Notes under the pieces: model-generated | Database searches by the model: none | The model's input: only the letters and a program-made list of their open reading frames with translations | What the model was told of the DNA's origin: nothing | Program-made: the position numbers and the translations under genes | Shown: in pieces, positions 17,578 to 33,724 of the stretch | Layout: the number at the start of each line of letters is the position of its first letter | Numbering within the stretch: the stretch's first letter is position 1 | Assembly: GCA_002724245.1 (NCBI GenBank) | Contig: PBOG01000042.1 | Location: 48,664 to 82,978, forward strand | Reading direction: 5' to 3' | Length of the DNA stretch: 34,315 nt | From: Planctomycetaceae bacterium | Lineage (GTDB): Bacteria; Planctomycetota; Planctomycetia; Pirellulales; Pirellulaceae

Positions 17578-18990
17578 TCAGCGTGTGCCGACCAGTTCCG
17601 GTATCGGCATCCCACGGGGCAAGATAGGAACCATCTCCGGTACGCTTTTGAACTCAAATTCGCGGGGTACACGATAGGTTTGACGCCAGTCGATGCCAAG
17701 CTGGTGATACATGGTCGCCCAGACGTCTTCAGGGGTGACTGGAGAATCGATCGGTGCGGCACTGATCCGGTCTGATTTGCCAATCACCTGCCCGCCTGGG
17801 ATCCCGCCACCGGCGAGTCCCATTGTCATCACTCCTGGCCAGTGGTCGCGGCCGACGTCCTTGTTGACGCGGGGCGTACGCCCAAACTCACCACTCCAGA
17901 CAACCAACGTGCTTTCCAGCATGCCACGGTCGTGCAAATCCTGGAGGAGCGCGGACATGGCCAGGTCCAGCTCAGGCAGAAGTTGATTTTGCAACGCGTT
18001 GAAATTGTTTTTATGCGTATCCCAGCCTCCGCGTGAGACCGTGACGAACAGCACCCCGGCGTCAACGAGTCGGCGGGCCATCAGGCACGACTGACCAAGC
18101 AAACTGCGGCCATAACGATCGCGGACGCTATCTGGTTCGTGGGAAAGGTCAAACGCCGTGACGGCCTTGTTGGAGGTCACGATGTCAAACGCCTTTTGTT
18201 CGTAATGGGTGACCGGTGTGGTTGCCCGGTGCTGCAACTCGTCGCGGCCCGCTTGAATTCGGTCGTAAGCCCGCAGCAGTTCACGCCGCTGCCGGATGCG
18301 GTCAATCGTCAGTCCAGCAACACGTGCCGTCATGTTGCGGGGTGGCGGGATGTCCTCCGCTTTGAAAATATCACCTTGCCCATCGTTGTTTGTATCTACC
18401 AGGCGACTAGGGATCTTGATCTGGAAAGGTTCACAGCCGCGATGAAGAAAAGCGGATCCGTGGTGACGGTTGACGAGCGTCGGCGGATCTTTCAGCACGA
18501 CGTAGGGCGGCATTGACTGCTGGTCACCCGTTTCATGCACTACCACCGATCCGAGACTGGGGTGTTCATTCTTGAAAACGACACGGCTGGGCATCCAGCC
18601 GGTCAGCATGTAATGCGCTGCCTGCTGGTGTTCAGACTGCACGTGATGGACTGACCGCAGGAGCGCCATTTTGTCAAGATGCCGTGACATGCGTGGCAAA
18701 TGTTCGGTGACTGCAATGCCTGGCAGTGTGGTTGCGATCGGTTCAAACGGCCCGCGGATTTCGCTGGGAGCCAAGGGTTTGGGGTCGAATGAATCAATCT
18801 GGCTGGCGCCGCCTCCCATATACAACTGGATCACCGCCTTGGGGCGAGTGGCAGGCAGTGCGGCGCCCAGCCTACCGTTGGGCAGCGCGGTGGCAAATCC
18901 CCAGCCGCCCAGGGTGCCGGCGGAGATTTGGAGAAATCCGCGTCGACTCGTTGGACCGACGGGATGGCGTGTACACAGGGAAAGGTGCAT
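17578..18990 (-). CDS. DUF1501 protein, GRDHW subtype
   Basis: This is a 470-residue DUF1501 protein. The frame stays open 91 codons further upstream, but ATG 18990 is chosen because it follows an AAGGAAA Shine-Dalgarno, lies just downstream of a promoter-like sequence, and gives a standard twin-arginine signal (TSRRGFLQISAGTLGGWG, arginines 16-17). Family blocks are AVIQLYMGGGASQIDSFDPKP, RSVHHVQSEHQQAAHYML, GEFGRTP from 367 and GRDHW at 380-384. The tail (EFEFKSVPEMVPILPRG) differs from the other GRDHW proteins here. It is the first gene of the minus-strand run of three DUF1501 paralogues plus the double-PSCyt1 gene. Confidence 0.91.
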   Translation of the reverse strand: MHLSLCTRHPVGPTSRRGFLQISAGTLGGWGFATALPNGRLGAALPATRPKAVIQLYMGGGASQIDSFDPKPLAPSEIRGPFEPIATTLPGIAVTEHLPRMSRHLDKMALLRSVHHVQSEHQQAAHYMLTGWMPSRVVFKNEHPSLGSVVVHETGDQQSMPPYVVLKDPPTLVNRHHGSAFLHRGCEPFQIKIPSRLVDTNNDGQGDIFKAEDIPPPRNMTARVAGLTIDRIRQRRELLRAYDRIQAGRDELQHRATTPVTHYEQKAFDIVTSNKAVTAFDLSHEPDSVRDRYGRSLLGQSCLMARRLVDAGVLFVTVSRGGWDTHKNNFNALQNQLLPELDLAMSALLQDLHDRGMLESTLVVWSGEFGRTPRVNKDVGRDHWPGVMTMGLAGGGIPGGQVIGKSDRISAAPIDSPVTPEDVWATMYHQLGIDWRQTYRVPREFEFKSVPEMVPILPRGMPIPELVGTR

Positions 18991-19021
18991 GGCGTATTTC
19001 CTTGAGTTGGCACTGGTTGAA

Positions 19022-19051
19022 ATTCTATCAAATAACGTGGCCTGCTCCCAA
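19022..19051 (-). promoter_or_regulatory. Sigma-70-like promoter for the 18990 run
   Basis: Read on the minus strand, TTGGGA (complement of 19046-19051) is followed after 18 bases by TAGAAT (complement of 19022-19027). Expected transcription would start near 19015, about 25 bases before the chosen ATG at 18990. This supports that start over the longer upstream reading. Confidence 0.45.
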
Positions 19052-19101
19052 TCAGAATGGCACCGGTCGCACCCCGTCTTGCGTGGTGGCCGCCTGGCGC
19101 A

Positions 19102-19132
19102 TTGTGTGCGGGCGGGGCACCGGGTGTATACT
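19102..19132 (+). promoter_or_regulatory. Weak promoter candidate for the PQQ-propeller gene
   Basis: TTGTGT at 19102-19107 and TATACT at 19127-19132 are separated by 19 bases, which is longer than optimal. The site is about 90 bases upstream of the ATG at 19223, in the divergent intergenic region shared with the minus-strand run. Confidence 0.3.
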
Positions 19133-19222
19133 TGCCAGCGTTCTGGTGGCTCGGATCCACCTGGTTTCGGCGAACATGACCGGTCGCGTCGGGTGAAAGT
19201 GGCCGCAGCGAAAGGGTGCGAT

Positions 19223-22219
19223 ATGCGAACTGCGCGAATACTTCTGGGAATGGTCGCCTGCACAGCCTCTCTCGGCGCGGATTGGCCAACGTATCGTGGT
19301 AGTCCGAGCCGCAGTGGGTATGTTCCGCAGCAGTTACCCGGGAAACTGAATTTGATCTGGAAACGCCGGTCTGTGCATCCACCTCAACGAGCCTGGCCTC
19401 GGTCGAAGCGCCAGTTATTTGACGCCTGTTACCAGCCGGTGATGTGTGGCGGACGCGTGTTTTTTGGAAGCTCGGTGGATGGCAGCGTTCGCTGTCTGGA
19501 TGGGAAGACGGGACGCCAGTTGTGGCAATGTTTCACCGGCGCACCGATCCGATTTGCGCCGGTCGCCTGGGCGAACCGGGTCGCGGTGGCTAGCGACGAC
19601 GGCCGGTTGTACGTACTGGAGGCCGAAACAGGATCTGTCGTTTGGGTACATCGTGGTGGTCCGCGGGATGCGTGGCGATTGGGGAATGAACGGATGGTAT
19701 CCAAGTGGCCAGCGCGCGGCGGTCCCGTCCTGTTGGATGGAATCCTCTATTACGCCGCCGGAATTTGGCCCAGCGATGGGATCTACATTTATGCGTTAAA
19801 GAGCGAGACAGGAGAGGTTGTCTGGTCGAACACGGATTCGGGCGGCCTGTACATGGCCCAGCCACACGGTGGTGCCAACGCGGCCAGCGGGCTGGCGGCT
19901 CAGGGGCATTTGTCGGCCCTGGGAAAACGTTTGTTTGTGCCTACCGGCCGGGCCATCCCCGCGGCGCTTGATCGGGCCGATGGGAGACTGGCTTATTTCT
20001 ATCTGCAGAAAAATCGAGCGGTGGGGGGGACTTCTGTGGTGCTCACCGATCGTTACATGGTGAACAGTGGCGTTGTCTTTGACGCGCTGAGTGGCGAGGC
20101 GCGGGGGAAATTGAAGGGGCGGGTGGTGAGCGCGTTTCCCGGAGGGCTGTTGAGTGCTGCGGGCGGCGAAATCCAAGCGGTGTCGACGAAGGTTGCGAAC
20201 AAGCCAGATCGAAAAGGGAACCTCAAGCCACAATTGGATCTTGCGGAACTCTGGACGGAAAGTGGTTTGGGAACGGTGACTAGCCTGATTGTGGCAGGTG
20301 ACACGGTGGTGGCAGGTGGGGCAGGCCATGTGGATGGCCTGGCACTGGGCGAGATCACACCCGCTAAACGGCGGCAGTGGCAGTTGGACGTCGATGGGGC
20401 TGTCTATGGGCTGGCGGTAGCGGACGACAAACTCTACGTGGCCACGGATCACGGCACGCTTTATTGTTTCGGTACTGGCGGGCCGGAGTCGGCGGTGAGC
20501 ATTGAGCCAATGGAGACAGAGGCCTACAAAGCGAATCCGCTAATCACGCGGGGCGTCGAGGAGATTTTGCGGGCGACTCGGGTCCGAGAAGGTTATTGTC
20601 TGGATCTGGGCTGCGGGGACGGTCAGTTGGCGTATGAACTGGCGAAACGTACCGACCTGACAATTTTTGCCGTCGATGATGACCTCGCCAACGTCCGGAA
20701 AGCGCGGAGCAAGTTGACTGCGGCCGGTTACTATGGGGATCGGGTGACCGTGCACTACGCGCCACTGCGGGACACCGGATACCCGCAATATTTTGCCAAC
20801 CTGATCGTTTCAGCGCGTGCCTTGGAAGAGGACCTCGGGCCACAGGTGATCAAGGAAGTGTCTCGGTTGCAACGGCCCTATGGCGGCACGGTCTGCTGGG
20901 GGCGTGTCGGGCAATTGGAATTGACGAAACGGGGTGCCTTGGCAGGTGCCGGGAGCTGGACCCATCAATATTCCAATCCCGCCAATACCGTCAGTTCAGA
21001 CGACGCGCTGGTGAAAGGCAAACTGGGAATCCTCTGGTTCCGCGACGTTGGTCTGGAGTTGCCGCAGCGCCATGGTCGCGGACCTGCTCCGCTCTTCCAT
21101 GAGGGGCGACTGTTTCACGAAGGCCTTGACGAAATTCGGGCGATTGATGCCTACAACGGTCGCCAATTGTGGTCGTACCAGCTTTCAGGGGTCCTGAAAG
21201 CTTACGATGGCGACCACCTGATGGGGACGTCCGGGACCGGAAGCAACTACTGCGTGACGGGTGACGGTGTGTTCGCCCGGCATCGTGATTTTTGCGTACG
21301 GATTGATGCTCGTACCGGGCAACCTCTGGGGGAGTTCAAGGTCCCGGGGAAACAGAGTGAGCGTGACAACGTGTGGGGCTATATTGCCTCCGATAGCGGT
21401 CGGTTGTACGGCTCCCGCGCTGATCCTACTCATGTCGTCACCTATCGCTACAAGCAAGGAGGTGATATGCGCCAACAGTTGACTGAATCGGATCTGTTCT
21501 TCGCGTACGATGTGGCGTCGGGTAAACTTTTGTGGCAATACCGTGCACAACATTCGATTCGGCACAACGCGATTGCGATCGGCCAGCGGTATGTCTATCT
21601 GATTGATCGGCCCCAGGCGGTTAGCGACAGGGTGAAACGCGCCACTGCGCCCCCGGCGCAACAGTCCGGGGCGTTGGTCGCGTTGGATAAAGAGAACGGC
21701 ACGCTGGTCTGGAAACGGGATACTGACATTTACGGAACGACGTTGGCGGTGAGTGATACGCATGGCGTGGTCGTCATGAGTTATCAGAATTCGCGGTTCA
21801 AGCTTGACTCAGAACTCGGCGGCCGATTGACGGCGTTTTCCGCTGACTCGGGGGAACCCTTGTGGGATAGAAAGGCGGATTACCAATCGCGTTTGACCTT
21901 AATGGACCGCACGGTGGTTGCTGATGGGGGCGCTTGGGACCTGATCAGCGGGAAACCGCGGAAGTGGAATTTTGAACGCAGCTATGGCTGTGGTGTCTTG
22001 AGTGGTGGCAAGAATATGCTCTTTTTCCGGTCTGCCACACTGGGCTATTTTGACATTGCCAAGAATGACAAGGTCCAGAACTTTGGTGGGGTCCGGCCGG
22101 GTTGCTGGATTAACGCGATTCCCGCCGGTGGGTTGGTCCTTGTGCCGGATGCGTCGGCAGGCTGCAGTTGCAGCTATCTCAACCGTTCCTGGTTCGCCCT
22201 GGAACCGACTGGGGAGTGA
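19223..22219 (+). CDS. Secreted PQQ-like beta-propeller protein with inserted methyltransferase domain
   Basis: The 998-residue protein starts at ATG 19223. The frame is open far upstream, but that part runs antisense through the DUF1501 gene and lacks a signal. A Sec signal peptide (TARILLGMVACTASLGA) precedes DWPTYRGSPSRSGY, the usual opening of PQQ-like propellers. About residues 30-415 form repeated propeller blades (VRCLDGKTGRQLWQ, LYVLEAETGSVVWVH). Residues about 430-575 look like a SAM-dependent methyltransferase: motif I LDLGCGDG at 460-467, then FAVDDDLANVRKAR, and a later DTGYPQYFANLIVS. Blades resume (AIDAYNGRQLWSYQL, VALDKENGTLVWKR) and the protein closes with AGCSCSYLNRSWFALEP. 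The role is unknown; propellers of this sort are often scaffolds rather than quinoproteins. It is followed 124 bases later by the thioredoxin-like gene. Confidence 0.87.
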   Translation: MRTARILLGMVACTASLGADWPTYRGSPSRSGYVPQQLPGKLNLIWKRRSVHPPQRAWPRSKRQLFDACYQPVMCGGRVFFGSSVDGSVRCLDGKTGRQLWQCFTGAPIRFAPVAWANRVAVASDDGRLYVLEAETGSVVWVHRGGPRDAWRLGNERMVSKWPARGGPVLLDGILYYAAGIWPSDGIYIYALKSETGEVVWSNTDSGGLYMAQPHGGANAASGLAAQGHLSALGKRLFVPTGRAIPAALDRADGRLAYFYLQKNRAVGGTSVVLTDRYMVNSGVVFDALSGEARGKLKGRVVSAFPGGLLSAAGGEIQAVSTKVANKPDRKGNLKPQLDLAELWTESGLGTVTSLIVAGDTVVAGGAGHVDGLALGEITPAKRRQWQLDVDGAVYGLAVADDKLYVATDHGTLYCFGTGGPESAVSIEPMETEAYKANPLITRGVEEILRATRVREGYCLDLGCGDGQLAYELAKRTDLTIFAVDDDLANVRKARSKLTAAGYYGDRVTVHYAPLRDTGYPQYFANLIVSARALEEDLGPQVIKEVSRLQRPYGGTVCWGRVGQLELTKRGALAGAGSWTHQYSNPANTVSSDDALVKGKLGILWFRDVGLELPQRHGRGPAPLFHEGRLFHEGLDEIRAIDAYNGRQLWSYQLSGVLKAYDGDHLMGTSGTGSNYCVTGDGVFARHRDFCVRIDARTGQPLGEFKVPGKQSERDNVWGYIASDSGRLYGSRADPTHVVTYRYKQGGDMRQQLTESDLFFAYDVASGKLLWQYRAQHSIRHNAIAIGQRYVYLIDRPQAVSDRVKRATAPPAQQSGALVALDKENGTLVWKRDTDIYGTTLAVSDTHGVVVMSYQNSRFKLDSELGGRLTAFSADSGEPLWDRKADYQSRLTLMDRTVVADGGAWDLISGKPRKWNFERSYGCGVLSGGKNMLFFRSATLGYFDIAKNDKVQNFGGVRPGCWINAIPAGGLVLVPDASAGCSCSYLNRSWFALEPTGE

Positions 22220-22329: not shown

Positions 22330-22337
22330 GGAGGTGA
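22330..22337 (+). promoter_or_regulatory. Ribosome binding site that fixes the start at 22344
   Basis: GGAGGTGA is a full eight-base match to the anti-Shine-Dalgarno, six bases before ATG 22344. It places initiation 51 codons before the in-frame TGA. The next in-frame start after that TGA, GTG 22512, has no comparable site. Confidence 0.75.
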
Positions 22338-22343
22338 GTGGTA

Positions 22344-23489
22344 ATGCGACAGGCAGTTCTGGCACTAATCGTTCTGGTGACGGTCGCTAGCGACATCCGG
22401 GATGCGGCTGCAGCAGCACCCCGTTCGCTAGCCGAGGCGCAAAATGTGGCGCAACTGACAGGGTTACCTATTCTGGCAATTGCGGGTCGAGACACGTGAG
22501 GCGCCTGCAAGGTGCTGGAGAAACGGTTGGTGAGCGACCGTAAACTGGCACCCCTGGTGGCACAGTTCGTGCCGCTGAAAGTCGATGTCTCGAGTGCGGA
22601 CTGGCGGACTCTGTCGAGCCAGTACCCGGTTGCTGGCAATACGATTCCCGTGGTCTACGTGATTCGGGCGGATGGGCAGAAGATTTTCGGCGCACGTAAA
22701 GCGTTGTCCGGTGACGAGCTGCCACGGATGTTGCGGGCGGCACGCGGTCAAGCAGGCGGGACCCTCAACGCACAACAACAGTCGGTGGTTCGTAGTGCTG
22801 TGGCGGAGGCCCGCGACGCGTTCAACCAGGGCCAGGTTGCCAAGACCATCAAAGCGTTACGGCCCCTAGCTAAATTGGGTCCCCTGGGACAGATTCCCTG
22901 TTATGCGAAGGCAGTGGTTGAAGCCAACTCGCTTGCTCAGAAGCTGGTGGACCGTGGCAGAACGGAATTGAAAAAGATCCAGCAGACGCTGGCGAAAAAC
23001 AAGGAGGTGTTCCCGGCGCTGCTGGCGCTGGTCACCGTAGAACGCGCTTATCGGCCGCTGAACGCGTTGAACCGGGAGATCGGCAGTGTCCTCCGTGAAA
23101 CGTCACGGAAAACTGAATTCAAACCTCTGTTGGCGCAGGCCAAGGCGATCGACAAGGCGCGGTTGCGGGCGACGGCCCGCGGAGGTTTGGCGAAAGCCGT
23201 GCGCGAGATGACGGCGTTGGTGATTCTTTACCGTGGTGATGCGGCCGAAGCGACGGCGCGGGTCGAATTGGAGAAACTCGCGGGCAAGGACTTCCAGGTG
23301 CCAGAGTTGGTTCCTGGTGAGTTGCGAACGTGGCAGGATGACACCGGCAAATTTCGCATCGTGGCTAAACTCGTTGAGCATCGGGGATCAAAAGTGGAGT
23401 TGGAACGAGAGACGGGAGACCGTGTTACGGTGCCCATCACGCGTTTGAGCACGGTGGACCGGGCGCTACTGCGTGCGGCACAGAAATGA
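22344..23489 (+). CDS. Candidate selenoprotein: exported thioredoxin-like (UxxC) and SHD1-domain protein
   Basis: Read through one TGA (22497-22499), this gene gives 381 residues. Residues 1-25 are a Sec signal peptide (AVLALIVLVTVA). Residues about 40-115 match a thioredoxin-like fold of the Thioredoxin_7 type: LPILAIAGRDT, the TGA at 52, then GACKVLEKRLVSD, FVPLKVDV and the cis-proline region TIPVVYVIRADG. The TGA occupies the first cysteine position of CxxC, so selenocysteine would give U-G-A-C. A helical middle is followed by an SHD1 domain at about 328-377 (RTWQDDTGKFRIVAKLVEH, then VTVPITRLSTVDRALL), common in Planctomycetota. Starting at GTG 22512 instead would remove the signal, the first strand and the redox motif. 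A nonsense mutation or sequencing error is the alternative. A redox role outside the cytoplasm is inferred. Confidence 0.72.
22497..22499 (+). other. In-frame TGA, probable selenocysteine codon
   Basis: Codon 52 of the frame opened at 22344. The residues after it are G-A-C-K, so the TGA and the cysteine at codon 55 have exact CxxC spacing. The frame then stays open for 329 more sense codons that encode a coherent thioredoxin-like and SHD1 protein. Confidence 0.6.
22511..22552 (+). promoter_or_regulatory. Candidate bacterial SECIS element
   Basis: Lower helix: 22511-22516 (GGTGCT) pairs with 22547-22552 (GGCACC), six pairs including one U-G. After an internal loop (22517-22522 and 22542-22546), the upper helix 22523-22529 (ACGGTTG) pairs with 22535-22541 (CGACCGT), seven pairs including one U-G. 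The apical loop is GTGAG (22530-22534), beginning with the GU expected of SelB-recognised loops. The upper stem starts 23 bases after the TGA, in the range usual for bacterial SECIS elements. Pairing was done by eye. Confidence 0.55.
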
Positions 23490-29660: not shown

Positions 29661-31913
29661 TCAGCGGGATTCGCGGTACTGGAACGCGTCAGTCTGTACG
29701 ACGGCCATGATTAACTGGGAAAATCGATAGTCGCCGGCGGCGAGGGTTTTCATGATCTCGTCCACCGCGCAGCGATCGTAAAACTCCAGGCCACGTCCTA
29801 ACGCATATGTTAGCATCTTTTCACTCAGGCAGCGACAGAACTGTTCACCACGGGAAGTGCGGAGCAGGTGGGCAAGTTCGTGGGGTTTGGCGAAGGCCTG
29901 CCCATCCGGCAGGGTCCCGCCGGCGTCGACGGGAAAGGCACCGTCTTTTTCGCGCCAGGCCCCGATGGCGTCGAAGTTCTCAAACCCGAATCCGATGGGA
30001 TCCATCAGTTGATGGCAGGAGGCACACAGCGGGTTGGCGCGGTGGGCTACCATCCGCTGGCGTAGCGAACCGGCTGCTTCCGCCTGCTCACCTTCGGCGA
30101 GCTCTTCGACGCCCGGCGGCGGATCCGGGGGAGGGGTACCAAGGATATTTTCTAGAATCCACTTGCCGCGTTTCACTGGAGATGTGCGTGTGGGGTTGGA
30201 GGTGAGCGTGAGAATACTGGCGTGGGTCAGGACACCTGCACGTTGGCCGGACGCCAGGGCGACGCGGCGGAAATCCTCGCCTTCCACAGCTGGCATGCCA
30301 TAGTGGCGCGCCAGGCGTCGGTTGACATAGGTAAAGTCGGCATCCAGCAAATCGAGCACATTGCGATCGCGCCGCATGACTTCCGTAAAAAACAGTTCGG
30401 TTTCCCTGATCATCGCATCCCGCAGCCCGTCGTCGAACTCTGGGAATTGCTTGCGGTCCGGTTCAATCTCGGCCAGTTTGCGGAGGTTGAGCCACTGCCC
30501 GGCAAAGTTTTTCACCATGGCCTCGGCTTTTTTGTCCTGCAGCATCCTCAAGACCTGTCCTTCAAGGACACCCGGAAGGTGGAGAACTTGCTTTTCCGCC
30601 AGGGTGAATAAGGTATCGTCTGGCGCGCTGCTCCAGAGAAAATAGGACAGGCGTGTGGCCAGTTCGAAGTGGTTTAGGCGGCGTGCCGGGTGGCCTTCGG
30701 GTGGGTCGGGTTCCACACGGTAGAGGAAGTGCGGGGAGACGAGGATGCCTTGCAGTGTGAACTGGACCGCTTCCTCGAAAGAGCTGCCGTGCTGCCGCGC
30801 CAGCTGGTAGAGTTTCAGCAGGCGTTTGTCTTCGGGTGCAGTCGTGGGGCGTCGGAAGGCCATCCTGGCGAGGCGCCGGATAAGGACCGTCGCGGCGTCG
30901 GCCGTCGCTTCGGCCTTGGTGCGTGTGGTGGCCTCCGGCAGAGGCCCACGGATCTCCACCCGGTGAACGATCAGGTTGCGGTCGGCGTTCGGCTTGTAAT
31001 AGTCGTTGAGGAAGCTGAGTCCCAGGGTGTGTTCGCCAGCTTCTGCAGGGACTGTGAGTCGGAATAGTTGCGGTGTGGTTTCGGTAGCGGAGACCGCCAA
31101 CGTTGTGATGCGAGCACCCTTGAATTCAACGCCCATTTGGACGGGCTCGTTGGCTGCCTGGTGGCCAAAGGCAAAGATCGCCAGTTCGTAGTGACCCTGG
31201 CTGGGGAAAACAACCTTGGTTGACATGGTCCCGTTACTGGTCAGCATCTGGCCCCCATGTGCGTATTTTGCGACTGGACCTGTCGTCAATTCCTCCCCAC
31301 GTAAACGTCTGACGAGCAGACGGTCGGATGCGGGGCTGGCCAGTACCTGAGGGCTGATGATGCCAGCCGCTTCAAAATACTTGTCCATCAACACCGGAGG
31401 CAGGGAGAGTACATCACCAATGTGGTCAAATCCGTACCCCACATCGTCGGCGGGGAAATGAACTGCTGGTTCGTAGTTGACGCCAAACAGGTCGCGCACG
31501 GTGTTGCGGTATTCAAACCGATTGAGGCGTCTCAGGGTGACTCGCCCCGGCCGGGCCTCCTGAACGCAATCAAGGCTGGTGGCGGTCTGCTGGATCCAGC
31601 TCGCCAGGAAGGCCCGCTCCTCGTCGGTCGGTTGGGGGGCCTCGGCCGGAGGCATGGCCTTGAGAGAGAGTTTCTGTGCGATCAGGGTGGCCAGCTGAGG
31701 CGATTTCTTGACCGCCTCGGCGTTGGCCAAGGGCTCCAGGCTAAGATCGCCCGCGGACTCACCGTTGCCGTGGCATTCGAAACAAAGTCGCTTTAGCAGT
31801 GGGGAGATCCGCTCCGTGAACGCGGTTTCGCGGGCATCCTTCGGGTCGGCGGCCGATAGTGTCACGGTCGACACGGCAGCCACAATGATGGCGCGGAAGA
31901 AGTGTGGTCGCAT
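29661..31913 (-). CDS. DUF1587-1595-1592-1588-1585 cytochrome-like protein
   Basis: The 750-residue exported protein starts at ATG 31913, giving a Sec signal (MRPHFFRAIIVAAVSTVTLS). A longer reading from 31985 would start upstream of the promoter-like site and lose the signal. The N-terminal PSCyt1 unit has CFECH at 44-48. Next come DUF1587 (RLNRFEYRNTVRDLFGVN), a CBM-like middle region, DUF1595 (QGILVSPHFLYRVEPDP), DUF1592 (RRLNHFELATRLSYFLWSSA), DUF1588 (SNPTRTSPVKRGKWILENIL) and DUF1585 at the end (YALGRGLEFYDRCAVDEIMK). A second heme-type motif, CASCH, is at 630-634, followed by QLMDPIGFGFENFDAIG. A diheme periplasmic electron carrier or oxidoreductase is the likely role. It heads the five-gene run. 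Confidence 0.91.
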   Translation of the reverse strand: MRPHFFRAIIVAAVSTVTLSAADPKDARETAFTERISPLLKRLCFECHGNGESAGDLSLEPLANAEAVKKSPQLATLIAQKLSLKAMPPAEAPQPTDEERAFLASWIQQTATSLDCVQEARPGRVTLRRLNRFEYRNTVRDLFGVNYEPAVHFPADDVGYGFDHIGDVLSLPPVLMDKYFEAAGIISPQVLASPASDRLLVRRLRGEELTTGPVAKYAHGGQMLTSNGTMSTKVVFPSQGHYELAIFAFGHQAANEPVQMGVEFKGARITTLAVSATETTPQLFRLTVPAEAGEHTLGLSFLNDYYKPNADRNLIVHRVEIRGPLPEATTRTKAEATADAATVLIRRLARMAFRRPTTAPEDKRLLKLYQLARQHGSSFEEAVQFTLQGILVSPHFLYRVEPDPPEGHPARRLNHFELATRLSYFLWSSAPDDTLFTLAEKQVLHLPGVLEGQVLRMLQDKKAEAMVKNFAGQWLNLRKLAEIEPDRKQFPEFDDGLRDAMIRETELFFTEVMRRDRNVLDLLDADFTYVNRRLARHYGMPAVEGEDFRRVALASGQRAGVLTHASILTLTSNPTRTSPVKRGKWILENILGTPPPDPPPGVEELAEGEQAEAAGSLRQRMVAHRANPLCASCHQLMDPIGFGFENFDAIGAWREKDGAFPVDAGGTLPDGQAFAKPHELAHLLRTSRGEQFCRCLSEKMLTYALGRGLEFYDRCAVDEIMKTLAAGDYRFSQLIMAVVQTDAFQYRESR

Positions 31914-31967
31914 CACAGCGGGGAGACTCCCGGGTAAAGAGGAGGTGACCAGGGCGGTGTACGGCCT

Positions 31968-31995
31968 ATTGTGCCGTACCGGCACCCTGGGTCAA
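31968..31995 (-). promoter_or_regulatory. Sigma-70-like promoter for the five-gene run
   Basis: On the minus strand TTGACC (complement of 31990-31995, 5/6) is followed after 16 bases by CACAAT (complement of 31968-31973, 4/6). Expected transcription would start near 31960, about 47 bases before ATG 31913. The remainder of the 188-base gap holds a hairpin near 32067 and nothing else recognisable. Confidence 0.45.
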
Positions 31996-32101: not shown

Positions 32102-33724
32102 TCATGGGTGTAATTCCTGTTGCTCCACTTCGTCTTCTGATTCCTCAGCGTCCAGGATGTCCAAGTGCGCAGGGTCGAAGAAACGCGCCATCGACATGCG
32201 GAATGGGACCAGTAACGCGATTAACAGAGGAAAGAAGATGCCCAGAGCGAATCCCTGAATTTTCGCCGTTTTGAGGACCCAGAGCGAGACCAGTCCCAAT
32301 AACTGCAACGCCGTGAAAACGTGGATGGTCTTGATGGGCACGGTGCGAATGTAGTGGGTCTTTGGATAGAGCGCCGGATCGGTGACCCAGAGTCGAATGC
32401 GATCGAAGAAATCGTTGCCGCCGAGGGTGGTAAATCCCATATAGAGGAAGAGCCCAAACAATACCGCATTGGGAATAAGGGTAACCATGGGCAGGAACAG
32501 CAACGAGGCGCCGATCAACAGGTGAACGAGTAACGGTGAAACTCGATTTTCCCGCACTTCTTTGATTCGTTCACGCATCTCGCCTCCCACGTCGACGGTT
32601 TCCTGCGTCGCGAGACTCTTTACGTGGTTCAATGCGTGCACTGTGGCGGCGACCATCCAGGGCAAACCGAAGAGGGAACCAATGAGCGTGATCAAGCCGA
32701 CGACGAGCAGGTCCAGATGGAACCCCGCACCCTTGACGAGACGGTTTCCCGGGGAATTGACGAGTCTGGTGGTGATGTTCTGGTCCAAGTAAAGCAGAAT
32801 GGTTGCCATCAATGCGGGCACAACAGAGCCTGCAATGACCCACCAGGGGACGGTAAACATATCGACGAGCGTGGGCAGTTCCAGTTTGTCGGGGACAGTA
32901 GCCACCTCCAGGCTGATACCGTCAGGCGTTCCGATCTCGTAGGAGCTCCCGCCCAATTCAAGTTTGGCGTTCAACGCGCCAAACGTAACGGCGACAAAGG
33001 TCATGACGCCGATGGCAATCGAAGGCCCAAAGTCGGCAAGAAATTCACGCACCGTCGATCGCATATAGCTGCTGTTGCGAAACACTTTAAGATTGCGGGC
33101 AATCATGAAGGTTCCCATGGCCAACACGAGCGTCAAGAAAGCAGTCTCGTAGGAGATGGCTTCCTGGCCGACGGGGGGCGTTGTAAATGGGGTGACGACA
33201 CTCTTGATGGCTTCGACGATGAAGATGACCGCGACCAGTGCGGCGAAAATCTCATCGGTGAAACGCGTGAAGTATTTCATCAGGTAACTGAGATCCAACA
33301 CGGCGCAGAGGATTAACAGAATTCCGGACCATACGCCGACCCAGGCGTATGTGGGGAGGAATGGGATTTCGGTGCTTTGGCATGTTGAATAGAGCAGGCC
33401 GGTGAAGATCACGATGGGGCCGGTGCCGCCAAGAATGGTGAGTGGTTGACCGGAAAACAGGGCGAAGCAGACGCCACCAATTGCCGTCACGATCAGCATT
33501 TCAGGGGTGCCGATCTCGCCTCCGGTGGCGACGGATGTCAAGAGTCCGAATGCGATGGCGTTTGCCAGACATGCAAAGAACATAAAGAGAGATGATCCAA
33601 GAACCTTGGGGTGAAGTCCTTGGGTGAAATCGCTGACGTAATGCGGGAGGCGGCGGTGGATGTCGTCGATCAGTCCGCCACAGAAACGTCCTGTTCGCTC
33701 GAGTCCTTGATTGGTGTTGGTCAT
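32102..33724 (-). CDS. SLC4-family bicarbonate/anion transporter homologue
   Basis: This 540-residue membrane protein is homologous to the SLC4 (band 3/HCO3 transporter) membrane domain. It begins with GGLIDDIHRRLPHYVSDF, the entry to TM1 in animal anion exchangers, and lacks their large cytoplasmic N-terminal domain. About 12-14 hydrophobic segments follow, including the TM3 region SGQPLTILGGTGPIVIF at 91-107. Strong family blocks are LDQNITTRLV at 313-322, GAGFHLDLLVVGLITLIG, FGLPWMVAATVHALNH, IPNAVLFGLFLYMGFTTLGG and IKTIHVFTALQLLGL. The acidic tail has LDAEE at 524-528. The family carries bicarbonate by exchange with chloride or co-transport with sodium; which applies here is not clear. 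No carbonic anhydrase gene is beside it. It is a single gene, 188 bases from the next coding region. Confidence 0.93.
   Translation of the reverse strand: MTNTNQGLERTGRFCGGLIDDIHRRLPHYVSDFTQGLHPKVLGSSLFMFFACLANAIAFGLLTSVATGGEIGTPEMLIVTAIGGVCFALFSGQPLTILGGTGPIVIFTGLLYSTCQSTEIPFLPTYAWVGVWSGILLILCAVLDLSYLMKYFTRFTDEIFAALVAVIFIVEAIKSVVTPFTTPPVGQEAISYETAFLTLVLAMGTFMIARNLKVFRNSSYMRSTVREFLADFGPSIAIGVMTFVAVTFGALNAKLELGGSSYEIGTPDGISLEVATVPDKLELPTLVDMFTVPWWVIAGSVVPALMATILLYLDQNITTRLVNSPGNRLVKGAGFHLDLLVVGLITLIGSLFGLPWMVAATVHALNHVKSLATQETVDVGGEMRERIKEVRENRVSPLLVHLLIGASLLFLPMVTLIPNAVLFGLFLYMGFTTLGGNDFFDRIRLWVTDPALYPKTHYIRTVPIKTIHVFTALQLLGLVSLWVLKTAKIQGFALGIFFPLLIALLVPFRMSMARFFDPAHLDILDAEESEDEVEQQELHP

Follow-up and report, generated by a model that had tools for sequence, protein, structure and literature searches.

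Gene layout and surroundings

The window (the whole stretch of DNA that was analysed, 34,315 nucleotides) carries a putative selenoprotein gene on its forward strand, and the parts of this gene are listed in Table 1. The reading frame begins with an ATG at 22344 and runs through 51 codons to a TGA at 22497-22499. It then continues for 329 sense codons and ends with a TGA stop at 23487-23489. Only one internal TGA is present in the frame 22344-23489. A standard open reading frame list contains only a 325-codon piece that starts at 22512. The initial annotation had described the ATG, a Shine-Dalgarno sequence, the TGA at 22497 and the 329 sense codons, and direct reading gives the same frame. 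It had also regarded the Shine-Dalgarno sequence as strong. This is true of the window, where GGAGGTGA is present, but the sequence is not kept in L017, a relative that is 78% identical.

Two Pfam domains were identified in the translated frame. Thioredoxin_7 (PF13899) was matched at residues 28-107 with 35.6 bits (gathering cut-off 27), and SHD1 (PF03983) was matched at residues 325-379 with 40.1 bits (gathering cut-off 23.7). With the TGA read as U, the motif is GRDT-U-GAC, and the TGA takes the first position of the thioredoxin C-x-x-C. The U-G-A-C motif reported earlier is thus borne out by the translation. The N-terminus is hydrophobic and Ala-rich in the window protein and its relatives, as judged by eye from the alignment.

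Table 1. Parts of the putative selenoprotein gene (positions in the window)
Feature	Positions	Strand	Basis
Complete gene of the predicted selenoprotein, 381 residues, Sec at position 52	22344..23489	+	Frame, homologues, dN/dS
Shine-Dalgarno sequence GGAGGTGA, 6 nt ahead of the ATG	22330..22337	+	Direct reading; weaker in relative L017
Putative N-terminal export signal (hydrophobic helix, Ala-rich cleavage region)	22344..22418	+	By inspection; helix 2-16 in the model
Thioredoxin-fold domain, residues 28-137	22425..22754	+	Pfam Thioredoxin_7 at 28-107; model; fold matches
UGA codon, predicted to specify selenocysteine, residue 52	22497..22499	+	TGA in the column at 47/57 family-search loci and 4/13 further loci; the rest are Cys codons
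Cys55, putative partner (resolving) thiol of the UxxC motif	22506..22508	+	Invariant column, 32-row alignment
Bacterial SECIS (predicted)	22511..22552	+	Folding, recoding and covariation tests
Helical domain, 8 helices, residues 143-313	22770..23282	+	AlphaFold2 model
SHD1 domain	23316..23480	+	PF03983, 40.1 bits; missing from part of the family

The downstream neighbour, on the opposite strand, encodes a DUF1549/DUF1553 protein that is kept in the same genus at 70-84% identity. The upstream PQQ-repeat protein is kept in L017 and L019. At 27 other loci, most with flanks no longer than 1.5 kb on either side, the type of neighbouring gene was matched only in L041 and L030. These matches stand alone and did not point to an operon partner, although the flanks are short. 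Other genes of the window were also noted. A 1182-residue frame at 18671-22219 (+) has PQQ beta-propeller repeats flanking a methyltransferase domain. The gene at 29661-31985 (-) combines planctomycete cytochrome and DUF1592-type domains, with a CBM60 carbohydrate-binding match inside. The protein encoded at 32102-33724 (-) has 540 residues and a match to HCO3_cotransp (PF00955, E 1.9e-163). HCO3_cotransp is the SLC4-type bicarbonate transporter family, which is known mainly from eukaryotes.

The selenocysteine column in related genes

Homologues were searched in 241 genomes of the bacterial family. At least 47 of these genomes, the host genome included, have a TGA at the Sec column in a homologue of the thioredoxin part; the matches listed are a lower bound, and further weak TGA forms may exist. 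Within the same genus, the gene with one TGA was found in all three genomes. A total of 59 loci, with the window locus among them, were checked codon by codon. The first 31 gave 30 TGA and one TGC, and the full batch, these 31 included, gave 47 TGA, five TGC, five TGT, one apparent AAC and one locus without a match over the site. The apparent AAC (L077) comes from an alignment shifted by one codon, with the TGA directly after it. Two loci were left out of the count: L082, where the site is not covered, and L017, a near-copy of L019 with the same identity and the same residues around the site. The final column thus comprises 57 distinct loci, 47 with TGA and 10 with a Cys codon (TGC or TGT), and nothing else. 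The Cys loci are five family-like genes (L041, L064, L073, L078, and L079) and five distant thioredoxin-like ones (L080, L081, and L083-L085).

The search was extended to 397 genomes of the class, and Sec forms were found in two further families of the same order. The 13 further loci that were checked have four TGA (two in G929 and one each in G722 and G792) and nine TGC, which brings the TGA genes to 51 in total. Some matches with stop codons were set apart. L103 (G763) has an in-frame TGA, but its Sec column reads TGC and the second Cys is missing, and it was not counted as Sec. L105 (G864) has a TAG in the match and a TGC at the column, and it was counted as Cys. A match with TGA and TAA in G125 spans only residues 245-377. 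A profile search across the phylum (392 genomes, E 1e-20) gave the host genome and three Cys forms among only four first-look candidates scored per genome, so that absence from this search is weak. One of the two TGA genes in G929 (L104, G929:C1:243968-244333) is a second, diverged Sec paralogue of the family, in which the region after the TGA is strongly structured (z -3.17).

It had been proposed that the TGA would not fall on this residue by chance, and that homologues should be examined for TGA or Cys codons at the position. Both points hold, with 47 TGA and 10 Cys codons in the first set and four and nine in the second. Unrelated disruptions of the gene, which would have spoken for decay, were looked for in the relatives and none were seen. 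Thus, an in-frame UGA at the catalytic Cys/Sec position with Cys homologues, as is looked for in bacterial selenoproteins, was found. A sequencing error was also considered and is ruled out because the same TGA occurs in 47 separately assembled family genomes.

In a tree of 52 rows (the 47 Sec genes and the five family-like Cys genes), two changes of state are needed, and a single origin of Sec is compatible with 24% of the bootstrap trees. The invariant columns of the 32-row alignment include G48, C/U52, and C55. Between the window and its nearest relative L019 (78% identical), the part of the frame after the TGA has a dN/dS (NG86) of 0.094, and the part ahead of it 0.19. The frames of the members are otherwise open up to their own ends. 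Two search matches with further stops, in G138 and G186, run into the frame's own end, which was read as TAG in L058 and as TGA in L037. It is hardly credible that the gene is a pseudogene, with the TGA a decay mutation and a 51-residue fragment the only product: TGA is a stop in the standard bacterial code and the standard list gives only the piece from 22512, but the identical TGA recurs across the 47 genomes in members down to 21% identity, and the frame after it is both open and constrained.

The RNA element and the decoding machinery

A SECIS-like element was predicted directly downstream of the UGA. When 22497-22556 is folded alone, a lower stem of eight pairs (22511-22518/22545-22552) is followed by an internal loop and by an upper stem of seven pairs (22523-22529/22535-22541), with the apical loop GUGAG at 22530-22534. 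A spacing of 30 nt separates the UGA and the loop. The fold has an energy of -22.5 kcal/mol, a value reached by 6 of 200 dinucleotide shuffles (z -1.98), and the 25-nt upper hairpin alone reaches z -3.70 with none of 200 shuffles as good. This hairpin (7-bp stem, loop GUGAG, -8.8 kcal/mol) lies within the bSECIS limits given in the available part of PMC13188914, which are a loop of 3-9 nt, an upper stem of 4-16 bp, a G in the first two loop positions, a spacing of 16-37 nt and an MFE of at most -7.5.

The initial annotation had pointed to the region after the TGA, and compensatory changes were found there. Of the 57 nt that follow the TGA, five differ between the window and L019. Two upper-stem pairs account for four of them by compensatory change, A-U becoming G-C in one and G-C becoming A-U in the other; the remaining difference falls in the loop. 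In L020, two lower-stem pairs (17-54 and 19-52) are changed on both sides relative to the window, and this partly alters the protein (V to A, A to T). Among seven near relatives, 85.7% of cells pair, a share that none of 500 shuffles reached and that compares with 53.3% for the best slid version. Their covariation score is 0.400, and slid versions do not exceed 0.165; the counted structure was taken from the window and is therefore favoured over slid versions.

The signal extends to the 47 members. For the 57 nt after the TGA, the mean folding z against synonymous recodings is -1.67, and 46 of the 47 values are negative; because the sequences are related, neither the z-scores nor the counts are independent of one another. 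In the same genes, five control stretches have mean z of -0.41, -0.37, 0.00, -0.29, and +0.08, and the 10 Cys loci have a mean of +0.15 with four negative. A scan for the centre of excess pairing in 25 representatives peaks at position +35 relative to the UGA (z 4.7, the top of 52 centres), and three other centres in the scan exceed z 3.

The detail of the element is less constant. A strict bSECIS scan, which requires an unbroken stem, finds no hairpin in 20 of the 47 members, and only four of the 47 have apical hairpins at -7.5 kcal/mol or better. Compared with recodings, the apical hairpins have a mean percentile of 0.51 and a mean energy of -2.4 against -1.0; for the Cys loci both energies are -1.5. 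With RNAalifold, no consensus structure and no pairs were obtained over all 47 members, and thus the SECIS element varies between clades. The 15-pair structure has a covariation of 0.192 over all 47, against 0.184 and 0.177 for slid controls, and the upper stem alone has 0.175, which two slid versions exceed (0.201 and 0.197). A stem-loop directly after the UGA, as expected of a bacterial selenoprotein, is therefore present, with the strict form missing in those 20. Judged from these sequence comparisons, the RNA structure after the UGA is under selection. Being selected and variable between clades in detail, it could be useful for refining SECIS models.

The genome that carries the window (7.79 Mb, 287 contigs, 98.8% complete) was searched for selA, selB, selD, and tRNA-Sec, as had been suggested, and all four were found; absence of selB and selC, which would have counted against selenocysteine, is not the case. 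The tRNA-Sec gene scores 70 bits (gathering score 47), and ARAGORN also calls a tRNA-SeC, with the anticodon TCA. SelB scores 366.8 bits (cut-off 242.25), SelA follows directly after SelB with 560.9 bits, and SelD scores 350.8 bits. SelD itself has one in-frame TGA, which sits in the motif CAGUAGK (L055, C89:28294-29220). UxxK is the Sec motif of SelD in the available part of PMC13188914. SelD is thus very probably a second selenoprotein of this organism, and a well-known one. Truncation of this gene under standard gene calling would also be expected.

SelB was found in 114 of the 241 family genomes (E at most 1e-60), and 113 of these are above the cut-off. It is present in 40 of the 47 TGA genomes as against 74 of the 194 others (Fisher p 3.7e-9, with kinship ignored). 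Among the seven TGA genomes without SelB, three have tRNA-Sec. Neither was found in the other four, G232 (91% complete), G190 (77%), G138 (80%), and G144 (71%). Both are also missing from two genomes with the Cys form, G220 (80% complete) and G221 (91%). G047 and G071 contain Cys relatives (L078 and L079) despite having SelB and tRNA-Sec, so Cys is not always tied to loss of the machinery. G063 holds a Sec copy (L030) together with a Cys relative (L073). Four genomes (G062, G196, G197, and G198) have two SelB matches each, some of them partial, and these are possibly two Sec-decoding sets or contig fragments.

Two other ways of reading the UGA can be considered. The stop could be obeyed in most cases, and the GTG at 22512, 12 nt past the TGA, could start a separate cytoplasmic protein with the helical and SHD1 domains. 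Such a product would lack the first thioredoxin strand and both active-site residues, whereas G48, C/U52, and C55 are invariant, and this outcome is very improbable. It is just as improbable that the UGA is decoded as some other amino acid or passed by general read-through, with a suppressor tRNA or a partial UGA reassignment. The inserted residue cannot be told from sequence alone, but tRNA-Sec with the anticodon TCA, SelA, SelB, and SelD are all present, homologues have Cys at the column, the gene itself ends in a UGA stop, the structure after the TGA is under selection, and the Cys-codon genomes G220 and G221 are without SelB and tRNA-Sec. Selenocysteine is thus, with high confidence, the predicted reading of the UGA at 22497, and the gene would encode a real selenoprotein. 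A UGA at the catalytic position, a complete Sec machinery, a conserved frame, and a selected structure after the UGA all point to this reading.

Protein role and comparison with known selenoproteins

The AlphaFold2 model (32 rows) has a mean pLDDT of 94.7 and a pTM of 0.85. It predicts an N-terminal helix, a thioredoxin fold, eight helices, and a small barrel. The thioredoxin part was matched in fold to AGR2 (Z 13.1), Rp19 (Z 13.0), and DsbD-gamma (Z 11.1), with rmsd of 2.0-2.7 A over 107-112 residues and sequence identities of 17-23%. Thioredoxins and a protein titled disulphide isomerase are also among the fold matches. A DsbD_TM protein is present in the host genome (77.2 bits) and in two of three same-genus genomes, and it is a possible electron donor for an exported thioredoxin domain.

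The initial annotation had considered an SHD1 domain in an exported redox protein to be unusual. The SHD1 of yeast Sla1 is intracellular. However, many of the 241 family genomes have matches to SHD1 alone, among the matches listed, and SHD1 is missing in nine of the 32 aligned members, the rows of which end before the domain. These observations rule out SHD1 as an oddity. The available part of PMC5906684 has also already described bacterial SHD1 in extracellular proteins. The SHD1 fusion is real, yet it is neither universal in the protein family nor unusual for these bacteria.

The selenium in the protein, its export, the direction of its redox reaction, its electron donor, and the role of SHD1 are inferred. 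SelB with tRNA-Sec would bind the stem-loop at 22511-22552, and ribosomes would then decode the UGA as selenocysteine. The N-terminal signal would take the product out of the cytoplasm. After export, the pair formed in Sec52-Gly-Ala-Cys55 of the thioredoxin domain could serve as a selenol/thiol redox centre, with Sec attacking a disulfide or other oxidised substrate and Cys55 resolving the bond. Electrons would probably be returned by a DsbD-like membrane protein, and the helical domain and SHD1 barrel may position a substrate or partner.

A role as an exported (envelope) disulfide reductase is somewhat favoured. The protein could instead be a selenoprotein of the oxidase, isomerase, or peroxide/methionine-sulfoxide type. 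The fold matches to AGR2 and Rp19, which are ER proteins, and to the protein titled disulphide isomerase agree with this, although they stand beside DsbD-gamma and thioredoxins. Sec redox couples usually have a low potential, and a DsbD-like electron donor is present in the genome. Both speak against this alternative and neither is decisive; such an activity is possible if rather doubtful.

A wider picture can be proposed tentatively, at a little under an even chance. The gene may belong to an ancient selenoprotein family of the planctomycete envelope, with Sec as the norm in three or more families of one order. Cys would have replaced it in lineages that lost the machinery (so far G220 and G221), and the more distant Cys relatives in G047 and G071 would be paralogues. 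Exported selenol reduction would be the dedicated function of the protein, with substrates selected by its helical-SHD1 tail, and the protein would be one reason for keeping selenocysteine. This is a testable reason for the retention of SelB in about half of the bacterial family (114 of 241 genomes). The 51 genes add a selenoprotein family to a phylum with a little-described selenoproteome in the literature searched, and splitting or truncation of such genes by standard gene calling would be expected.

The gene had been called undescribed. No NCBIfam model matches the window protein over its cut-off. The available part of PMC13188914 (2026) states 119 prokaryotic selenoprotein families, none of which is there SHD1-linked or matching, and its main text, as available, does not mention Planctomycetes, Pirellulaceae, or SHD1. 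Planctomycetes and SHD1 are likewise not mentioned in the available part of PMC9312934, and none of the 25 families in the tables seen of PMC1794560 is of the exported UxxC-SHD1 type. In the full-text literature, the reports on planctomycete selenoproteins were not relevant, as judged by title; SHD1 together with selenoproteins led to work on T cells, and SHD1 in Planctomycetes to work on SH3-like domains. No report was found on selenocysteine in Pirellulaceae, and nothing joins the Sla1 homology domain with thioredoxin. PMC4807772, in the part available, describes Sec machinery and selenoproteins in two planctomycetes, with candidates in its supplement S9. The claim thus holds for NCBIfam and the published inventories as available, and an earlier listing in S9 is possible.

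The nearest entry in PMC13188914, as far as available, is the Trx7/PDZ domain-containing selenoprotein (NF041199). It resembles the window protein in having Sec and a Thioredoxin_7-type domain (PMC9312934, available part). Its published motif is CxxU, with Sec at the second position (PMC13188914, available part), whereas the window protein has UxxC. NF041199 is named for a PDZ domain, and the window protein has no PDZ match and scores 12.9 bits against a cut-off of 300. The bacterial Sec-thioredoxin (PF00085) and the thiol:disulfide interchange selenoprotein (PF13098) likewise have a thioredoxin fold and UxxC in the available part of PMC13188914. However, PF13098 is another Pfam family, to which the window protein scores 12.5 bits (cut-off 27), and PF00085 gives no match to it up to E 10. 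DsbD-gamma, AGR2, and Rp19 have the thioredoxin fold in common with the window protein; these domains are not known to be selenoproteins. The C-terminal domain of the window protein is above the Pfam cut-off for Sla1/Slap homology domain 1 (PF03983). Within the inventories compared, this is a new selenoprotein family within a well-known kind, the thioredoxin-fold UxxC selenoproteins.
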